Shown one piece after another: positions 15,996 to 25,007 of a DNA stretch of 64,000 nt (position 1 is the stretch's first letter; every line of letters starts with the position of its first letter). The position numbers and the translations under genes are program-made. Below the pieces are notes generated by a model that was not told the origin of the DNA, did no database searches, and saw only the letters and a list, made by a program, of their open reading frames with translations. The stretch lies in NCBI GenBank assembly GCA_944325605.1, contig CALVAX010000003.1:1-64000 (forward strand). Reading direction: 5' to 3'. The DNA is from Candidatus Gastranaerophilales bacterium. GTDB taxonomy: Bacteria; Cyanobacteriota; Vampirovibrionia; Gastranaerophilales; Gastranaerophilaceae.

Positions 15996-16307
15996 CTATT
16001 TCTCCGGCTTTGGCAAGTTGTGTTTTTTGTGGAGGTTCTTTTTTATAATTTTATAAACATACCTTTGAGATAGATCACATTCGATTGCGAGGCGGTTTAC
16101 GGTGTACTTTCTGCCGTCATACTGACTCATAATGTATTTTTCTTTTATTTCACGAAACGGATTTTTCGGGATGCTTACTGTTAAGCCCGGTGAGCAAAAG
16201 ATTAGAGCCAAGGCGGATTTTATGCCGGCTGATTCTGCGATGAAACGCAAATCATCGTTCGGCATATCTTCCGGTTTTATCAAGTCCATCCAAGGCTTGT
16301 AGTCCAT
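15996..16307 (-). CDS. Mor/C-type transcription activator
   Basis: 103 residues matching the Mor family of Mu-like phages: PNDDLRFIAESAG, PGLTVSIPKNPF and the C-terminal helix-turn-helix LAIECDLSQRYVYKIIKK. Mor binds middle promoters and recruits RNA polymerase to switch from early to middle/late expression. It is the last gene of the early operon here, as in Mu. Its mRNA 5' end is predicted to be made by ribozyme cleavage 47 nt upstream of the ATG (see the hammerhead at 16327-16391); a gaggag site precedes the start. Confidence 0.8.
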   Translation of the reverse strand: MDYKPWMDLIKPEDMPNDDLRFIAESAGIKSALALIFCSPGLTVSIPKNPFREIKEKYIMSQYDGRKYTVNRLAIECDLSQRYVYKIIKKNLHKKHNLPKPEK

Positions 16308-16326
16308 AATCTCCTCTTATTTATGT

Positions 16327-16391
16327 GGTCTCATCAGTTAACGCATTACATTAAGACGGTCAGCTTGCACTGTTAGCCGACCGTTTCGACC
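16327..16391 (-). ncRNA. Type II hammerhead ribozyme B (upstream of Mor)
   Basis: Read on the - strand: GGUC, GAAA, stem III CGGUC/GACCG with a 17-nt loop, cleavage triplet GUC, stem I UUAAUG/CGUUAA with a 5-nt loop, CUGAUGA, then GACC which closes the open stem II with GGUC. Every conserved core nucleotide is present. Predicted cleavage between 16355 and 16354. It starts immediately after the stop codon of the 92-residue gene. Stem I differs from copy A by paired changes. Confidence 0.93.
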
Positions 16392-16670
16392 TTATTGTGC
16401 TAATGTAGCAGAGTAAGCATTTTCAATATCATTTCGAGACTGTGTTAATGCGATTAAAAGATTTTCATTAACTTTTACTTCTCTAAGGTATTGCGGCAGT
16501 TTATCAATATCTTCAACAAAAGGGAGTGCATCTTTAGGACTTTTAATATCTCTAATATCAAGATCCATTGTCCTAATAAGTACATCTGCAATATTAACTT
16601 TTGCCTGAGTAATTTTTTGCTGAATATCGGCAATTCGTTCATCCAACACTGCTGTAGCTTTGTTTTCCAT
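16392..16670 (-). CDS. Early-operon small protein flanked by two hammerhead ribozymes
   Basis: 92 residues, helical, with IADIQQKITQAKVNIADVL and a C-terminal helix; no family recognised. An aaaggag site precedes the ATG. The gene is bounded exactly by two direct-repeat hammerhead ribozymes: one ends 23 nt before its start and the other begins at the base after its stop. Self-cleavage of both would release a ~367-nt RNA carrying only this ORF. Neighbouring Mu-like phages have host-nuclease inhibitors and other small early proteins at this position. Confidence 0.65.
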   Translation of the reverse strand: MENKATAVLDERIADIQQKITQAKVNIADVLIRTMDLDIRDIKSPKDALPFVEDIDKLPQYLREVKVNENLLIALTQSRNDIENAYSATLAQ

Positions 16671-16693
16671 TTTTGTCTCCTTTACTTTTAATT

Positions 16694-16750
16694 GGTCTCA
16701 TCAGTTAGAGCCTTACTCTAAGACGGTCAGCACAGCCGACCGTTTCGACC
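16694..16750 (-). ncRNA. Type II hammerhead ribozyme A
   Basis: On the - strand: GGUC, GAAA, stem III CGGUC/GACCG with a 9-nt loop, GUC cleavage triplet, stem I UUAGAG/CUCUAA with loop UAAGG, CUGAUGA, GACC. Core fully conserved, including the G-C pair closing stem II and the A-U pair at the base of stem III. Predicted cleavage between 16722 and 16721. Sits in the 90-nt gap between two early genes. Confidence 0.93.
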
Positions 16751-16760
16751 TATGTAAACC

Positions 16761-17081
16761 TTAGTCGGGAGGCATTTTTGCAGGGGTAAGCATATCTTCT
16801 AAGTCTCGTTCGATCTTAGATAAGATGAAGATTTGTCCTTCAAGAACCTTGCAATCAATTTCTCGTTCTTTTGCACAACTCCAGTTATCTTTAACCAAAT
16901 TTGCATCAGCAAATTTTAATTTTGCATCGTTCAAACGTTCTTCAAGGTCAATTTTTTGATTCTTGATTACCCCCATCATTGCATATTCTTTAGGGTCATC
17001 AGCATTGTGAGAAACTTCTCCAAAGAATGAATTTCCCATCATAGGTGACATTGAATCTGTTGTTTTTTCTGCTGTTAGCAT
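16761..17081 (-). CDS. Early-operon protein, unknown
   Basis: 106 residues. Start MLTAEKTTDSMSPMMGNSFF then a helical segment MGVIKNQKIDLEERLNDAKLKF (quoted in part) and a second helix ending LEDMLTPAKMPPD. It is predicted soluble and mostly coiled. Ribosome site ggaga before ATG. It lies between gp16 and hammerhead A; no family recognised. Confidence 0.6.
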   Translation of the reverse strand: MLTAEKTTDSMSPMMGNSFFGEVSHNADDPKEYAMMGVIKNQKIDLEERLNDAKLKFADANLVKDNWSCAKEREIDCKVLEGQIFILSKIERDLEDMLTPAKMPPD

Positions 17082-17109: not shown

Positions 17110-17562
17110 CTACTCAAGTGTGGCCGCACTTTTTTCTTTTAATTTTTTCTTTATTGCCGTTATTGCCTGAATAACCTTACAGGCTTTGGCTCTGGTTAAA
17201 AACATAATGTCATCGACCTTAAACTTTGATTTTAAAAACTTTCTCAGGGATTTTTTCGCAAATTTATCATCATTGAAATAGCAGACATCTCTCCATAACC
17301 CCTCAATCATTCTGAGTTGAGCATCAGATGCCATATTTTCTGTGCGATTCAAATCCGCATATTTTTTCGGCTGTTTTGTCCACTTGTTTATAGCAACGGC
17401 TTTATCTTCAAGGATATCTACCAAAATTGCGGCTTCTGTAAATGTCAAATCCTTTGATGATGTAACATCAAAAGACATAAGCATTTCACGATATAAGTCG
17501 TCATCCATACCTATAACATTTTTTAATGCGTGGATTTTTCTAATCTGAAAAGTCGTAGCCAT
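17110..17562 (-). CDS. Mu gp16-like regulatory protein (DUF1018)
   Basis: 150 residues with the family pattern: FQIRKIHALKNVIGMDDDLYREML at the start (quoted in part), then ASDAQLRMIEGLWRDV and KSKFKVDDIMFLTRAKACKVI. Gp16 is a conserved early protein of Mu-like prophages located between the transposition genes and Mor; its molecular role is not settled. The start overlaps the end of a small membrane protein gene by 23 nt. Confidence 0.85.
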   Translation of the reverse strand: MATTFQIRKIHALKNVIGMDDDLYREMLMSFDVTSSKDLTFTEAAILVDILEDKAVAINKWTKQPKKYADLNRTENMASDAQLRMIEGLWRDVCYFNDDKFAKKSLRKFLKSKFKVDDIMFLTRAKACKVIQAITAIKKKLKEKSAATLE

Positions 17563-17773: not shown

Positions 17774-18652
17774 CTATGCCATTAATAATTTGGAAGTTTG
17801 TTTAATCACAGCATCATCGACCTCAGCCTTACCGTTAAATTTGGCAATGCTGATGCTGTGGGAAATTAAGTGTTCTAATCTTCTTGTGTTTCCATCCGAA
17901 TACTGAAGATACGTTTCAGCAAGTTTTGTATTCTGACCGATAGACTCAAGAATTTTTATGACGTCTTGAATCAATATTTTGTCTATAATTTTTGTAAATT
18001 TTACTCTTGAATACAGCTGGTCATACTGATTGTTGTAACCTTTCAGGTTTTCAAGCAGAATTCCTCTACCCACTAAAAGGATACCTACACCTGTTTTATC
18101 GTGGATACGGCGAGTAATTTCTAAGGCTCTATATGGAAGATTTTCAGCCTCATCAATAATCAAAAGTCTGCCTGATTGGTTTAATTTTCTGACGACTTCA
18201 TCCATCAAATCATAAACCGAACCCTTACCGGAAAGTCCTAAACGTCTGTGGATTTCCTTGAGAAGAGATTTTGCAGTGTAGCCTGAATCGCTTTCAATAA
18301 GGATTGAGTCCATAAATTCTTTGGTATATCTTTTTACGGCAACGGTTTTACCGAGTCCGGCTTTACCGACACAAACTCCGATTTTACCCTGTGTATGGCA
18401 CAGTCTGCCGATTTCAGTGATATATTTAACCGTTGAAATATCTACAAAAGGCAGGTCGCTGTTGCCGGAACGTTCGTGTTCACGTTGGATAAAATTATTT
18501 ATAGCATCGGTAATTTTATCGTTTTTACCGTTATAATTACCGTTCATCCACATACTGATTGTAGACTTAGCAATCCCTGTAGCGGTTGAAACGTATGCTA
18601 TACTGTAATTTTTAGATTCCATCAAATCTTTTAATTCGGCTCTAATATCCAT
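17774..18652 (-). CDS. MuB-like transposition ATPase (module 1)
   Basis: 292 residues. N-terminal ~55 residues form a Cro-like helix-turn-helix (GIAKSTISMWMNG), as in MuB. Walker A GKAGLGKT at 96-103 and Walker B LLIIDEAE at 163-170 mark the AAA+ domain; a sensor-like LVGRG follows. MuB polymerises on target DNA, delivers it to the MuA transpososome and stimulates strand transfer. The start overlaps the MuA stop by 11 nt and has an aaggag site. Confidence 0.9.
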   Translation of the reverse strand: MDIRAELKDLMESKNYSIAYVSTATGIAKSTISMWMNGNYNGKNDKITDAINNFIQREHERSGNSDLPFVDISTVKYITEIGRLCHTQGKIGVCVGKAGLGKTVAVKRYTKEFMDSILIESDSGYTAKSLLKEIHRRLGLSGKGSVYDLMDEVVRKLNQSGRLLIIDEAENLPYRALEITRRIHDKTGVGILLVGRGILLENLKGYNNQYDQLYSRVKFTKIIDKILIQDVIKILESIGQNTKLAETYLQYSDGNTRRLEHLISHSISIAKFNGKAEVDDAVIKQTSKLLMA

Positions 18653-20585
18653 TGGCGACTCCTTTTAATTCTTGGTCGAGAATTTTATCCGTCTCGTATA
18701 AATAGAGAGGTTTTTCTTCCGGCTTGTTATCGTTTAAAAACATTGATAAATCGTACTTCCCAAAGGATTCCATCTCTTTACTTTTTTGAATAACTTTATC
18801 CATTTTGGTGTTAGCGATTAACGAAACTTTTGGTTTGGCTTGCTTTTCAACGCTTGCGTATGCTGCTTTATAATTTGCACATTTTTCTTCAATACTAATC
18901 TCTCGATTCTGTTTAATATATGATTTTGCAATCTTCAAACTGCGTTTTTTAATAGCCATAGCCTCTTTGAAAGCTTCTTTTGAAATTTCGTCTGCATGAA
19001 GTGCCGCAACAGCTTTGACCGCAGTAACCTTACCGACAAATTCGTTATTATCGGCTCTAAAAGCCCAAGCATCTTTATAATTTTGAACATCCCGGCGGAG
19101 ATAAACTTTTAATCTGGTTTTTGAAACCATCCAATCAGCCCAGTAAGTAATACCGAGTTCATTATCCTTAATGCCGTTTCTAATAATCGTGAATGTTTTA
19201 GATGTCCTCATGCAGAACAATTTAAGTGCATCTTTTGATGGTCTGATTTTTTCTGCAAATTCCTGATTAAATAATTGGTTTGGTGATAATCCGGCAAGGT
19301 TTTTACCTTGTGACGGACGTTTGTTTAAGACATTAATCACAAAATCGTCAAAAATTTCCTTAAACTGTTCAAACGGAATAATCTTCCCTGCTTTAATCTC
19401 TTTTGCAAGTTTTTCCGGACGTTCAACAACATTGCCGCCACGATATCCGACACAGTGTTTAGAGAGCAGTTCCTTTATTTTTAAGAAATCTCTTTCAATT
19501 GGTTTTGTCTGTGCATTATATGGAAGAGCGAAATGTACATTGACATTCAATTCTCCAAGCATAGACCTTGTTTTACATTGATTAGTTTCGACTTTAAATT
19601 GACGTCCGCCGGCAAAGTCTTTCGAGCGATAGTCCTTGCCGTTATCTATGATGACATCTTTAGGTAAGCCAAATTCATTGACCGCATAATAAAATGATTG
19701 AAAAATATGATCCGAATTTGGATTTCCTGATTGCAGTATCCAACCGAGCCATTTCCCTGATTTATAATCTCTCCAAGCTGTAACCCAAGGAAATACAACG
19801 TTGCCGTCTTGAGTAAGACAAGCAACGTCTATCTGAGCGTGATCTGAAACCCACGCTTCACCGCAAATTACAGTAGAGTAGTCTCTATCAATGTAATTGC
19901 CGTATTTTCTGTTCCAAGCGGATTCCCCATATCTCGCTAAATAAATACTTTGCTCAGGAACTTCTCGTCTTAACCTGCGTTTAAAGGTTGAACAACTAGG
20001 GAAACTAACACTTTCAATTTTGTGTTCTCTCATTGCATAGCCAAGTGTCAAATCCCAACAGGTTTGTAAAGAGGGAGCACCCTCCATCAAATACAAATTT
20101 TTGAAGTAATCAAAATAGCAATCTTTTATTATTGATCTGCCTGAATTGTTTCCATATCTTGATAGTAAACCATTTATTCCACAAGCAAAGTATCTATTTC
20201 TCATTCTAATTAAGGAAGAATAAGACGTTTGGTTATCAGGATTATTTTTATTCCAATTTTCGATGAACAGTTTTAAGGCTCTGCCTCTCAAACAAAGACT
20301 TTTTTGGATAACATCTATGTATTTATCTGCCTGAATGCGTGACCATAAAGGGGCTTCAGAATATTTTTTATTATCAGATTCGTTGTCAATTTTTTTTGAT
20401 ATAGGTAAAGATGAATAACGAATAAAAATTTGTTTTATATTATCTTTTACTTCAATTTTATAAATAAAATCACCTTTGTAGCAGCGATTTTTGATTGTCT
20501 TTTCCTTGACATTCAAAAGGTTACACGCTTCTTGAATTGAAATCCAAGCCGGAATATTTGATTTTACTTGCTTGGTTTCATTCAT
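18642..20585 (-). CDS. MuA-like DDE transposase (module 1)
   Basis: 647 residues. N-terminal winged helix/Mu DNA-binding domain (WISIQEACNLLNVKEKTIK), catalytic core with D248 (VSDHAQID), D314 (VIIDNGKDY) and E364 (KPIERDFLK), spaced 66 and 50 residues as in MuA-type integrases, and a C-terminal Mu_C-type barrel followed by a basic tail that would contact the ATPase. It cuts and joins phage ends into target DNA during replication and lysogeny. Overlaps the Ner-like gene and the ATPase, so the three are coupled. Second such pair in the prophage. Confidence 0.9.
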   Translation of the reverse strand: MNETKQVKSNIPAWISIQEACNLLNVKEKTIKNRCYKGDFIYKIEVKDNIKQIFIRYSSLPISKKIDNESDNKKYSEAPLWSRIQADKYIDVIQKSLCLRGRALKLFIENWNKNNPDNQTSYSSLIRMRNRYFACGINGLLSRYGNNSGRSIIKDCYFDYFKNLYLMEGAPSLQTCWDLTLGYAMREHKIESVSFPSCSTFKRRLRREVPEQSIYLARYGESAWNRKYGNYIDRDYSTVICGEAWVSDHAQIDVACLTQDGNVVFPWVTAWRDYKSGKWLGWILQSGNPNSDHIFQSFYYAVNEFGLPKDVIIDNGKDYRSKDFAGGRQFKVETNQCKTRSMLGELNVNVHFALPYNAQTKPIERDFLKIKELLSKHCVGYRGGNVVERPEKLAKEIKAGKIIPFEQFKEIFDDFVINVLNKRPSQGKNLAGLSPNQLFNQEFAEKIRPSKDALKLFCMRTSKTFTIIRNGIKDNELGITYWADWMVSKTRLKVYLRRDVQNYKDAWAFRADNNEFVGKVTAVKAVAALHADEISKEAFKEAMAIKKRSLKIAKSYIKQNREISIEEKCANYKAAYASVEKQAKPKVSLIANTKMDKVIQKSKEMESFGKYDLSMFLNDNKPEEKPLYLYETDKILDQELKGVANGY

Positions 20586-21149: not shown

Positions 21150-21824
21150 TTAAGCAAATAATAATGTATTTATCCCTGAGTATCTTTCAGGAAAATCCTT
21201 TCCATATTTCCACAACTCTTCAGCCAGGTGTAAATGAAATCTATGAGCAAATGAGCGGCTTAAAACTTTTCTATAACTTCTCAAATAGATGTTTTTTATT
21301 TCTAAACGTTCGTCATTAGTATGTTTACGTGCATCTTTAGATATTAAGTATTTATCAGATACAAATAATTTGTGTTCATATAAATACAGATAAACTTTTG
21401 CATTCATATAAATCCTTTCTTGCGGTATTTTAGGGGATTTTTCAAAATACTTAACAAGTTCTTTCTTTTGTTGTTCATAAATTATTGTCCTAAAATATTG
21501 ATAAAAATTATTCATAACATGTTTTGAAAAACCAAATAAATCAATCATTTTTAAGACTTCTATATCAATACAAAACCCTTTTATTATGTAATCTATATCA
21601 GTTTTGGAATGGTGTTGAAAAAATTGCGGAAGTCTTTGTTTGTTTCCACCTTGTTCTTTATTATATAAATATATATTGTCTCTAAAAATAAGTTTTCCTT
21701 CTTGCACCAGAGTCAAGAGGAGTAACTCTAAAACAGCCTCATCAACATCTTCAGCAATAGTTGAAATCTCATCAAGTGTAAATTTATCCAACCGTTTGCA
21801 AAGTCTTAATATTCTGTCTTTCAT
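21150..21824 (-). CDS. Third gene of second transposition module, winged-helix-like, unknown
   Basis: 224 residues. The first ~60 (LRLCKRLDKFTLDEISTIAE, LLLLTLVQEGKLIFRDN) look like a winged helix. The rest is helical, aromatic and basic (FFQHHSKTDIDYIIKGF, SYRKVLSRSFAHRFHLHLAEELWKY in parts). It lacks the zinc-finger cysteines expected of a TniQ protein. It overlaps the ATPase gene by 41 nt, which implies joint function. It may be a target-selection or regulatory partner of the second transposase. Confidence 0.5.
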   Translation of the reverse strand: MKDRILRLCKRLDKFTLDEISTIAEDVDEAVLELLLLTLVQEGKLIFRDNIYLYNKEQGGNKQRLPQFFQHHSKTDIDYIIKGFCIDIEVLKMIDLFGFSKHVMNNFYQYFRTIIYEQQKKELVKYFEKSPKIPQERIYMNAKVYLYLYEHKLFVSDKYLISKDARKHTNDERLEIKNIYLRSYRKVLSRSFAHRFHLHLAEELWKYGKDFPERYSGINTLLFA

Positions 21825-22500
21825 TTAATATTCCTTTCAAAGTGTATTCGTCAATTTCTTGTATTTTGTTAGTTTCAGACAATTTTTCTATTTTATTAAT
21901 CAACTTAACCAGTTGCCTGAACTGATTTGTCCTTGTTGCGAGATAATTTATTGCATCAGGAGTAAACTCCAAATCCGTTATTTGTTGAAGAATGTCTGTA
22001 ATATCGTCTTGATTAAATTGTTCAAACTTAAGTATTTTGTATAGCCTGTCCAACAGATGCGGATATCTTGCAAGTTTTTTATCAGCCGCTCCCATTCCGA
22101 CTAAAACTATCGGGCAGGCTGTTTTATCGTGCAAATCCCTTAATGTTTCAACCGTATGCTTTTCAATCAAATAATCAATCTCATCAACAATAATTATTTT
22201 AGGATTCTGTCTTAAATAATTTTCTATGAGTTCAAAGGTTTCCTGTGTATGCCAGTAAGGTTCTTCACCAAGTTCCTCCGCTATTTCAGATAAAAGCCAT
22301 CTGCTCGTCATTCCCTGTGTTGCCCGAACATATACAGAATCGTTTTTATCCGCCCACCACTGGATTGTCTGAGATTTTCCAAGCCCATGGTCTCCGTAAA
22401 CTAATGCAAGTTTCGGAATGTTCGGCGAAAGTTTTTGCAACTCATTCATCAATGCTACAAACCGCTTAACGTTTTTTGTTTTAATAAATGTTTTCTTCAT
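21784..22500 (-). CDS. MuB/TnsC-like transposition ATPase (module 2)
   Basis: 238 residues, without the N-terminal helix-turn-helix of the first ATPase. Walker A GDHGLGKS at 36-43 and Walker B IIIVDEID at 102-109, then a PIVLVGMGAADKKLA sensor segment. The HxxL pattern and C-terminal helical lid match the TniB/TnsC/MuB clade. It would activate the adjacent transposase and choose target DNA. It starts 3 nt from the transposase stop, with ggaga upstream. Confidence 0.88.
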   Translation of the reverse strand: MKKTFIKTKNVKRFVALMNELQKLSPNIPKLALVYGDHGLGKSQTIQWWADKNDSVYVRATQGMTSRWLLSEIAEELGEEPYWHTQETFELIENYLRQNPKIIIVDEIDYLIEKHTVETLRDLHDKTACPIVLVGMGAADKKLARYPHLLDRLYKILKFEQFNQDDITDILQQITDLEFTPDAINYLATRTNQFRQLVKLINKIEKLSETNKIQEIDEYTLKGILNERQNIKTLQTVG

Positions 22501-22503
22501 AGA

Positions 22504-24492
22504 TTAATCTCCATATAAGTTGTAATATTCATCGCTTTTTATATAATCCGCAAGCCACTTTCTATCCTGCGGATTTGTTGTTCCGTTTATCATCAACCAT
22601 TCATATTTTTCATAATTTGAATTAAACATCGGCACGTTCATCTGCCGTTCACGAGGGGTTAATTTTCGTGCACGCTTTGGCTTTGGTTGTTCTTCTATTT
22701 CTAAAACAGGTTCCTGTTCAATTTCTAAAACCTGAAGTTCATCTTTAGTGAATGTCTTTTTAATTTGTTTAACAAGCCGGTTTTTAATTTTCTGCTGCCT
22801 TTGATACTGCTGCTTGTATTCTTCCATATCTTTAACTGTGCCTAGAACATTTGCCATCGGGTGAACTTTTTGCACCCTATGTGCCACGCATAAAAATTCA
22901 CCTTTCATTGAATAAACTTGAATCTTGGAAAGGTCAAATAAGCTGTACCGTACATAGACCTTATCCCGAAGTCCAAGAATAACATCACTCCTGTAATGCA
23001 TTCCGAGAAATGTTATTCCGTGTTTATTTATAGTTCGTGATTCTGTTTGCATCATTAAATAATCGAGTGCAGATTTATTAATATCTTGTTTCTGAACAGA
23101 ATTTAATACCTCTTGAATTTTCTTTGAACGATCATTAGGACAGGCTTTTTGATTCCTGTATTCAAGCCACGCATTAATATATTTAATAGTCTCTTGTACT
23201 GTCGGAATATTTCCTTTTGTTTGTTGATTATGAAGTTGCAAATGCAGTTTTTCATTTCTATTCATCCACGCAGGACGGTTTTCAATTGAAGTGCCGATAT
23301 AACTTGGCATAAGTTTTTCAAATTCTTCCTGAAAATCTAAGAAAAATCTTTCTATAACTTTTGCACGTGCATTGTAAGGTTTAGCAAAAACGGAGTGAAT
23401 ACCTAAATTGGCATACACTCCGTTAAATATCCCCTCATCAAAATCTGCATCTTGGAAGAATTTAGATTTAAATGCTTTGCCGTTATCTTGATAAACTACT
23501 TTCGGGATTATTCCGAGATTTAAAATAGCGTTCCTTAAAGCACTTGCAATACATTGAGTATTTTCAGTCATCATAATTTCATAACCGACTAATGCCGTTG
23601 ATTTCCAATCTAAAAAACCGACCAAAGTTGCTCTGGTCGGCTTTCCTGTAAATGGATTTATTACTTGAAAATTAAGAACGTGTCCGTCTGCAATCAAGAC
23701 ATCTCCAACTTCTATTTTACTTATATCTCTTTCAATATATGGTTCAACCTTATCGTGGTAGGCTTTCATACCCTCACGTCTTAACACCCACTCCGCATAA
23801 TGATTTCTTCTGAAATGCTCCGCAAACCTTTTGAAAGTTATATTACTCGGCAGAGCATCTTCATCATAACCTTTTTTAATCAATACTTGTTTTGCAAGTC
23901 TGATTGCCGTATTGTATCCGAATTTATTCTGATGAAGTAAAAGAGCAAGCAGAACTTTTTTCATATTGTCATCTAAAATGCTGTTATACTCACCTTGCTT
24001 TGTTATTTTGTATTGGGGTATTAGGGATTCTGCGTTGCCTGTTTTCTTGTAGGTTTGTATGTATCTTCTCAAAGTTCCGATTGAAATACTTCCCAAAAAT
24101 TCGTATGCTTTTGGTAAATACAAACCTGAATTATACAGATCTAAAAATTCCGTATCAGCTTCTTTTATTGTCGGATATTTATTTCTATGTTCAAGTGCGG
24201 CTTTAACAATGTTCATTCTGTGATTTGCCGTCAATCTTGCTTTATCCGTTACAGTCGGCGGTTTGTAATTAAGGGGAATTATAGCCGTTGATTTGGTTTC
24301 GCATTCCCGAAGTTTTTGTTGTAATTCAGGTTCTAAACTTGAAAACAATATTTCGTATGACATTCCGCCGTTAACTTTGACTTCTCTTGAAATATATTTG
24401 CTTTCAGGTTTGTTTATTTCCATTCGGATTGAGCGGGTACTCTTTAATCCCTTAGCCTGAGCGATTTCTTTAATAGTTACATATTCATTCAT
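22504..24492 (-). CDS. MuA/TnsB-like DDE transposase (module 2)
   Basis: 662 residues from the ATG at 24492 (aaggtg 8 nt upstream); a GTG at 24501 is less likely. Two DNA-binding domains in the first ~240 residues, a core with D269 (VLIADGHVLNF), D336 (VVYQDNGKAF) and E381 (AKVIERFFLDF), a Mu_C-type barrel around DKVYVRYSLFDLSKIQV, and a basic C-terminal tail ending PMFNSNYEKYEWLM, the short motif that contacts MuB-type ATPases. It shares little sequence with the module 1 transposase. The end-type repeats at 24.6-24.8 kb lie just upstream, as binding sites for this enzyme would. Confidence 0.88.
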   Translation of the reverse strand: MNEYVTIKEIAQAKGLKSTRSIRMEINKPESKYISREVKVNGGMSYEILFSSLEPELQQKLRECETKSTAIIPLNYKPPTVTDKARLTANHRMNIVKAALEHRNKYPTIKEADTEFLDLYNSGLYLPKAYEFLGSISIGTLRRYIQTYKKTGNAESLIPQYKITKQGEYNSILDDNMKKVLLALLLHQNKFGYNTAIRLAKQVLIKKGYDEDALPSNITFKRFAEHFRRNHYAEWVLRREGMKAYHDKVEPYIERDISKIEVGDVLIADGHVLNFQVINPFTGKPTRATLVGFLDWKSTALVGYEIMMTENTQCIASALRNAILNLGIIPKVVYQDNGKAFKSKFFQDADFDEGIFNGVYANLGIHSVFAKPYNARAKVIERFFLDFQEEFEKLMPSYIGTSIENRPAWMNRNEKLHLQLHNQQTKGNIPTVQETIKYINAWLEYRNQKACPNDRSKKIQEVLNSVQKQDINKSALDYLMMQTESRTINKHGITFLGMHYRSDVILGLRDKVYVRYSLFDLSKIQVYSMKGEFLCVAHRVQKVHPMANVLGTVKDMEEYKQQYQRQQKIKNRLVKQIKKTFTKDELQVLEIEQEPVLEIEEQPKPKRARKLTPRERQMNVPMFNSNYEKYEWLMINGTTNPQDRKWLADYIKSDEYYNLYGD

Positions 24493-24507
24493 GGTACACA
24501 CACCTTA

Positions 24508-24544
24508 ACTCGGAAGATGAAGAATTGGAACAGTACTTCCGAGT
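24508..24544 (-). promoter_or_regulatory. Inverted repeat upstream of the module 2 transposase
   Basis: Perfect 9-bp arms ACTCGGAAG / CTTCCGAGT separated by 19 nt, with outer ACACA / TGTGT that partly enclose the transposase ribosome site on the mRNA. It could fold in read-through transcripts and limit transposase translation, or be a protein-binding site. Confidence 0.5.
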
Positions 24545-24615
24545 ATGTGTCGGTTTTGTATCAATTAAAAAATTTAACAGAACAGCAGAATTTTCAAAAA
24601 CCTCAAAAGACTCAC

Positions 24616-24835
24616 TTGCCCGCAATAATCATACCATTTGAACCAAGCCTTAATTTACCCAAAATATAGGCACAAAGAGGTTTAAAATCCTTTTGCCCGA
24701 AATAATCACACCATCTGCACCGAGTAGAAAAAGAGTAAAAAGAGTAATTACAGTTCACATGGTTTGATTATTTCCTACCCATGAAATCCGCTACACAAGC
24801 CGATTACCCAAAATAATCGCACCATCTGCCCTACG
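24616..24835. repeat. Transposon-end binding-site array (four copies)
   Basis: Four ~30-bp copies of a site with core GCCCGAAATAATCACACCAT: direct at 24616-24647, 24693-24724 and 24804-24835, and one inverted at about 24753-24780. Multiple short sites, one reversed, next to a MuA/TnsB-type gene are the layout of Mu and Tn7 ends. They mark the right end of the prophage close to 24.84-24.88 kb. The matching left end is not in this window. Confidence 0.75.
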
Positions 24836-24879
24836 CAAAACACTCACTTTAATACACACTTTATTACATACAAAAAAGT

Positions 24880-24914
24880 TAAAAAATAGAGATAAGGCTT
24901 AAAACCTTATCTCT
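24880..24914 (-). terminator. Terminator of the tRNA-fMet gene
   Basis: AGAGATAAGG / CCTTATCTCT hairpin with a 7-nt loop followed on the - strand by ATTTTTTA. It lies 13 nt past the CCA of the tRNA. The prophage end lies just beyond it, so the prophage did not break the tRNA transcript. Confidence 0.85.
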
Positions 24915-24927
24915 ATTGCTTTTTAAT

Positions 24928-25007
<80 letters not shown>

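Follow-up and report, generated by a model that had tools for sequence, protein, structure and literature searches.

The window, that is, the whole 64,000-nucleotide stretch of DNA analyzed here, contains a Mu-like prophage, and two type II hammerhead ribozymes (HHR1 and HHR2) lie between the genes of what appears to be its early/middle operon. The features of the locus are as follows:

18642-20585, MuA-type transposase, Mu-like prophage gene
17774-18652, MuB-type ATPase, Mu-like prophage gene
17110-17562, minus strand, GemA, syntenic anchor in the Mu-like prophage (Pfam GemA, E 3.5e-18)
16761-17081, minus strand, 106-aa ORF, the cistron 5' of HHR1
16694-16750, minus strand, HHR1, type II hammerhead between ORF 16761-17081 and the 92-aa ORF (model R1, built without HHR1, 64.6 bits, E 2e-19)
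16721-16722, minus strand, predicted HHR1 cleavage site, after C17 at 16722 (hammerhead consensus, between GUC and stem I)
16676-16680, minus strand, putative ribosome-binding site GGAGA of the 92-aa ORF (from the sequence)
16392-16670, minus strand, 92-aa ORF between the ribozymes, exchangeable unit (from comparison with relatives)
16327-16391, minus strand, HHR2, type II hammerhead between the stop codon of the 92-aa ORF and Mor (model R1, 60.5 bits, E 5e-18)
16354-16355, minus strand, predicted HHR2 cleavage site, after C17 at 16355 (hammerhead consensus)
16311-16316, minus strand, putative ribosome-binding site GAGGAG of the Mor-like gene (from the sequence)
15996-16307, minus strand, Mor-like late/middle transcription activator, the downstream cistron (phrog_836, E 2e-13; Pfam Mor, E 1e-4)

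A sequence-only reading of this DNA had described two type II hammerheads on the same strand that bound a single ORF of a Mu-like operon, ahead of Mor, and this arrangement was borne out by the sequence and the gene annotation; likewise, the predicted cleavage positions (16722/16721 and 16355/16354) and the 367-nt interval between them are correct. The stop codon of the 106-aa ORF precedes the start of HHR1 by 10 nt, the TAA of the 92-aa ORF abuts HHR2 without a gap, and a ribosome-binding site and start codon follow 3' of each ribozyme. The junction between GemA and the 106-aa ORF carries no ribozyme. Neither a Pfam nor a PHROG match was found for the 106-aa ORF, and no convincing family of either collection for the 92-aa ORF; the Pfam family CoA_binding_3 was rejected for the latter, as the match lay below the cut-off and is probably due to coiled-coil similarity. 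Moreover, a protein search of viral contigs returned no relatives of the 92-aa ORF and a nucleotide search with 3 kb against phage records returned no match. The nearest relatives that bear a name are Candidatus Gastranaerophilales genomes assembled from animal-gut metagenomes. A weak, profile-based N-terminal similarity of 37 columns was observed between the 92-aa and 106-aa ORFs, which may possibly be paralogues derived from tandem duplication of an ORF-ribozyme unit; this paralogy is not claimed here, since cleaned profiles leave those 37 columns at 51% probability. Adjoining the Mu-like prophage, a second transposition module (21150-24931) encodes a Mu-type transposase (22504-24501, Mu-transpos_C), a TniB/AAA ATPase (21784-22500) and a 224-aa protein (21150-21824), with a tRNA gene (24931-25004) beside it, and could be a Tn7/Tn5053-like element.

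Both type II hammerheads of the window are real. On the minus strand, HHR1 reads from 16750 to 16694 as GGUC GAAA CGGUCGGCUGUGCUGACCGUC UUAGAGUAAGGCUCUAA CUGAUGA GACC and HHR2 from 16391 to 16327 as GGUC GAAA CGGUCGGCUAACAGUGCAAGCUGACCGUC UUAAUGUAAUGCGUUAA CUGAUGA GACC, cleavage being predicted between the two variable segments of each. The core (CUGAUGA, GAAA and NUH) and the three helices are complete in both, as had been noted from the letters alone, and in both stem II is open and stems I and III are closed, i.e., the type II form; the minimum-free-energy structure is the hammerhead for both copies (z of -4.0 and -2.8). The difference in stem I between the copies is also genuine, with the qualification that stem I of HHR2 has one U-G pair where relatives have C-G. 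A pattern of this architecture matched twice in the window, at HHR1 and HHR2, and never in 100 dinucleotide shuffles. Rfam scans (gathering and E-value) reported no hammerhead family for the window; RF02276 (Hammerhead_II) left the window copies undetected in the window region even at E up to 5 and, at the gathering threshold, 8 relative loci as well. Because the Rfam scans reported no hammerhead family, a covariance model of our own (R1) was built from 42 viral-contig ribozymes only, the window copies being excluded, and in the genome of about 2.15 Mb it matched these two copies and nothing else. The sequence-only reading had looked to Hammerhead_II for the recurrence of pairs in related prophages; that model detected neither the window copies nor, at gathering, the 8 relative loci, and matches to our own model recur as pairs in several genomes of the order. 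A large hammerhead subclass escapes the current Rfam model.

Conservation of RNA pairing was assessed in two sets of relatives. Stem pairs were kept in 460/460 cells of 23 distinct 71-nt Gastranaerophilales relatives, nine pairs showing double changes, and in all 672 of 672 cells of 42 viral 58-nt relatives, with 11 doubly changed pairs; selection of the viral copies had used only the core, stem II and the length of stem I, and not pairing in stems I and III. In both sets the covariation score was reached by none of 500 shuffles and sliding of the pairing partners abolished pairing. Unpaired core bases are invariant across divergent copies. Furthermore, in two relatives whose middle ORFs are about 99% identical (L143 and L144), stem III of HHR1 is wholly replaced with pairing retained. 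The class is characterized by a 4-bp stem II (GGUC/GACC), which is nearly invariant everywhere, a 6-bp stem I, a 5-nt UNANG loop and flanking A residues. Viral contigs were scanned with the GGTC/GACC pattern, so that the counts describe that subclass only: among the matches listed, stem I and its loop (UNANG) span 17 nt in 172/195 ribozymes, an A precedes GGUC in 187 of the 195 and an A follows GACC in 146. A pseudoknot of at least 4 bp between loop I and the 3' tail, common but not universal in the set of 2011 (PMC3088659), is absent from the window copies, where 3 nt at best can pair, and in the class such pairing is at chance level (35 observed vs 32.8 shuffled), for which reason it was rejected as the tertiary contact. 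In these features the class departs from the type II consensus with its pseudoknot. Additionally, the stem III apical loop GGCU-AACRGUGCA-AGCU (window 16372-16364) is strongly conserved among Gastranaerophilales copies and stands at the same place in most 65-nt relatives, shorter loops also occurring. The core CUGAUGA (window 16331-16337, and in relatives) holds overlapping UGA and AUG triplets, and in L143, L151 and L154 an in-frame ATG within the ribozyme extends the middle ORF as MRPIKVKETKM.

The position of the ribozymes relative to genes was likewise found to be regular. Among the matches listed in the viral-contig scan, a stop codon closing a frame open for at least 40 codons lies -8 to +3 nt from the first stem II base in 145/184 non-redundant ribozymes, as compared to 321 of 3680 random positions (8.7%) in the same contigs under the same criterion, and the distance from the ribozyme to a ribosome-binding site with start codon has a median of 21 nt. 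Within the same scope, exactly one ORF bridges 45/86 pairs of neighbouring ribozymes and a single ribozyme is present in 69/115 viral locus-strands, the latter being an upper figure as many loci are partial. In three viral contigs, at least 9, 9 and 12 ribozymes are present, and each set is restricted to a single small-gene block. Between 5 and 12 type II hammerheads were counted in phage gene blocks at L002, L065 and L109 and on the contigs of L033 and L079, many of these blocks having one ribozyme for every small gene.

A model match was present in 37 of 241 sampled genomes of the order, several having two copies about 360 nt apart, and the pair is kept between GemA and Mor in Mu-like prophages of Gastranaerophilales. 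Prophages with a middle ORF have two ribozymes, one occasionally a variant; where it is lacking, a single ribozyme lies between the 106-aa ORF and Mor, and the many single ribozymes of Gastranaerophilales prophages show the same order of stop codon, ribozyme and ribosome-binding site. In L145 as compared to L144, exactly the middle ORF and one ribozyme are absent while the flanking genes are 97-99% identical, and the junction falls inside the ribozyme, such that the sequence upstream of HHR1 is joined to the body of HHR2 and to the sequence behind it; L159 shows the same kind of loss relative to L138. Moreover, the middle ORF has been swapped between closely related prophages: the window and L143/L144/L154 share nucleotide identities of 0.95-0.96 in GemA, 0.91-0.93 in the 106-aa ORF and 0.89 in Mor vs 0.62 in the middle ORF, and L139 and L153 share 0.98, 0.98 and 0.99 vs 0.65 in the same genes. 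The proteins of the middle ORFs belong to a single coiled-coil-like family, in which they have diverged from one another. In L145 and L167, mosaic breakpoints were also seen on the downstream side of Mor, at places that carry no hammerhead; the ribozymes are therefore not the sole exchange points and, since exchange there needs no ribozyme, a special recombinogenic role is not established. One of the two copies has an extra U after CUGAUGA in L138 (4508-4575), L168 (1731-1800) and L174 (4758-4851), the L168 variant also lacking GUC, and activity in every copy is thus not to be assumed; all three loci retain the ORF and the second hammerhead next to the variant. The conservation of the pair between GemA and Mor in Mu-like Gastranaerophilales prophages is new, as is the turnover of ORF-plus-ribozyme units, for which no earlier description was found in the open-access literature.

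We propose, with a probability of roughly 0.6, that the hammerheads act by intercistronic self-cleavage, which would yield separate mRNAs with hairpin ends from an operon of exchangeable ORF-plus-ribozyme units. The structure and covariation of the ribozymes, their geometry, their conservation and the turnover of the units are shown by the data, and from these the cleavage of the window copies, the stabilization or insulation of mRNAs and the route of recombination are inferred. The transcript from GemA to Mor would be cut by each ribozyme during its synthesis, giving separate messages for the upstream genes, the 92-aa ORF and Mor. Since stems I and III are both closed hairpins, both cut messages would have hairpin ends: the upstream message would end in the stem III hairpin with a 2',3'-cyclic phosphate right behind the stop codon, and the downstream message would begin with the stem I hairpin and a 5'-OH about 50 nt before the start codon, 5' of the ribosome-binding site. 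By analogy with RiboJ, an engineered insulator derived from the sTRSV hammerhead, such ends might shield the messages from nucleases and uncouple each gene from its neighbours, with a stabilizing and insulating effect at the window locus; the self-cleaved 5' hairpin of RiboJ raised transcript levels about twofold and protein levels two- to tenfold in E. coli (PMC6206723). As in RiboJ, cleavage 5' of the ribosome-binding site is predicted to leave a 5' hairpin and to remove the upstream context; unlike RiboJ, the window ribozymes are natural type II hammerheads whose 5' hairpin would be stem I, and their intercistronic site would give the upstream mRNA a 3' hairpin as well. Turnover of the units, by gain, loss or replacement, would use breakpoints within the ribozymes or next to them, homologous recombination being the simplest route. 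It may be speculated that translation delays cutting, since a ribosome terminating at the adjoining stop codon would occlude the 5' half of the ribozyme. Several observations count against this proposal. Punctuation by ribozymes is partial, because the junction between GemA and the 106-aa ORF has none; variants with an extra U after CUGAUGA occur in some relatives, exchange points without a hammerhead exist downstream of Mor, and in precursor folding the predicted probability of the 4-bp stem II is low, namely 0.03 for HHR1 and 0.60 for HHR2, which is tempered by the fact that thermodynamic models ignore the tertiary core.

The sequence-only reading had instead suggested that the pair could serve to release a 367-nt RNA with the 92-aa ORF and to ligate it into a circular mRNA. 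The copies do share orientation and identical stem II strands, the pair recurs in several relatives at a spacing of 357-394 nt, and the termini of the excised RNA are mutually complementary, so that closure by an end-to-end 4-bp stem II (GACC/GGUC) is geometrically possible, its probability being predicted at 0.43 for the window fragment and at 0.06-0.98 in relatives. This part of the claim stood, and a circle is possible as a side product, although the proposed reading does not require one. However, stem II is near-invariant everywhere and cross-compatibility is not specific to pairs; it was discarded as a test for circles because it has no power. Single ribozymes of the same geometry, which are incapable of forming a circle, are common, and the sole accessible published search for circular products from such clusters was negative (PMC3088659), which makes the circle unlikely as a selected function; the frequent singles also imply that the selected unit is the single intercistronic ribozyme rather than the pair. 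It is similarly improbable that the hammerheads are mainly conserved DNA linkers for recombination with RNA cleavage being incidental: the gain, loss and replacement of the middle ORF do map to the ribozymes, and the window copies have exact runs of 18, 15 and 13 nt in common, but compensating stem substitutions reduce DNA homology while preserving RNA pairing, and a pure linker would need neither these nor invariant unpaired core bases.

A main role in the regulation of Mor, by timing or tuning the separation of its cistron with the second copy as a duplicate, would fit the hammerhead (sometimes a variant) that precedes Mor in those Gastranaerophilales loci that extend far enough; we nevertheless regard it as rather unlikely, given that ribozymes of the same class precede many unrelated genes in other phages, so that the class would stay unexplained. 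The inserted or altered junction nucleotides of a few relatives might suggest inactive relics devoid of current function; this is very improbable, as divergent copies keep 100% of their pairs, with covariation, and have invariant cores. Intercistronic self-cleavage into separate mRNAs is the reading that we retain.

Since small genes of a phage region are flanked here by several hammerheads on the same strand, the window arrangement is of a known kind, namely the clustered phage hammerheads of Perreault et al. (2011; PMC3088659), who described multiple hammerheads flanking single prophage genes, e.g., the triple hammerhead around ardA in Agrobacterium tumefaciens; the earlier statement that a pair delimiting a coding gene was undescribed therefore does not hold. 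Three tandem sets were found to cleave in vitro and the Agrobacterium set also in E. coli, processing into gene-length mRNAs was proposed, and spliced or circular products were raised as a possibility and went undetected when looked for (Perreault et al., 2011). Those clusters likewise have hammerheads in one orientation that flank single genes or small blocks in prophages, and they comprise type I, II or III hammerheads with varying gene identities. The window copies differ from them in the stem, loop and flanking-A features of their class, in the lack of a loop I-tail pseudoknot above chance, in the setting of a Mu-like prophage in a Gastranaerophilales host and in the documented turnover of the slot. 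With Rfam RF02276 they share the type II permutation, stems I and III closed and stem II open, whereas that model scores neither them nor the 8 relative loci above gathering. As in retrozymes and in viroid or satellite hammerheads, a direct pair delimits an RNA whose ends could form a ligation-competent ribozyme. Retrozymes, however, are dispersed hammerhead-bounded repeat families propagated through circular RNA and reverse transcription, and the window locus is not of this type: the genome holds two model copies in about 2.15 Mb, neither a repeat family nor a reverse transcriptase was seen, the insert is coding and ribozymes of this class are often single.

The ORFs flanked by motifs of this kind encode small proteins that are not conserved, and the role of the motifs was left open (De la Pena, 2017; PMC6155905); the role of prokaryotic and phage hammerheads is listed as an open question in reviews (PMC6155905), a question that this locus family makes testable. 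Near-identical prophages with zero or one extra ORF-plus-ribozyme unit, or with swapped ORFs, allow the role of the hammerhead to be tested, and the insulation, stabilization and circle models could be separated using these loci. More tentatively, the locus may represent a natural insulated gene-cassette system, in which phage operons are assembled from interchangeable ORF-plus-hammerhead units that bring their own self-cleaving punctuation, the ribozyme sequence doubling as homology for exchange. If this were true, genes could be inserted, removed or replaced in such operons without disturbing the expression of their neighbours.
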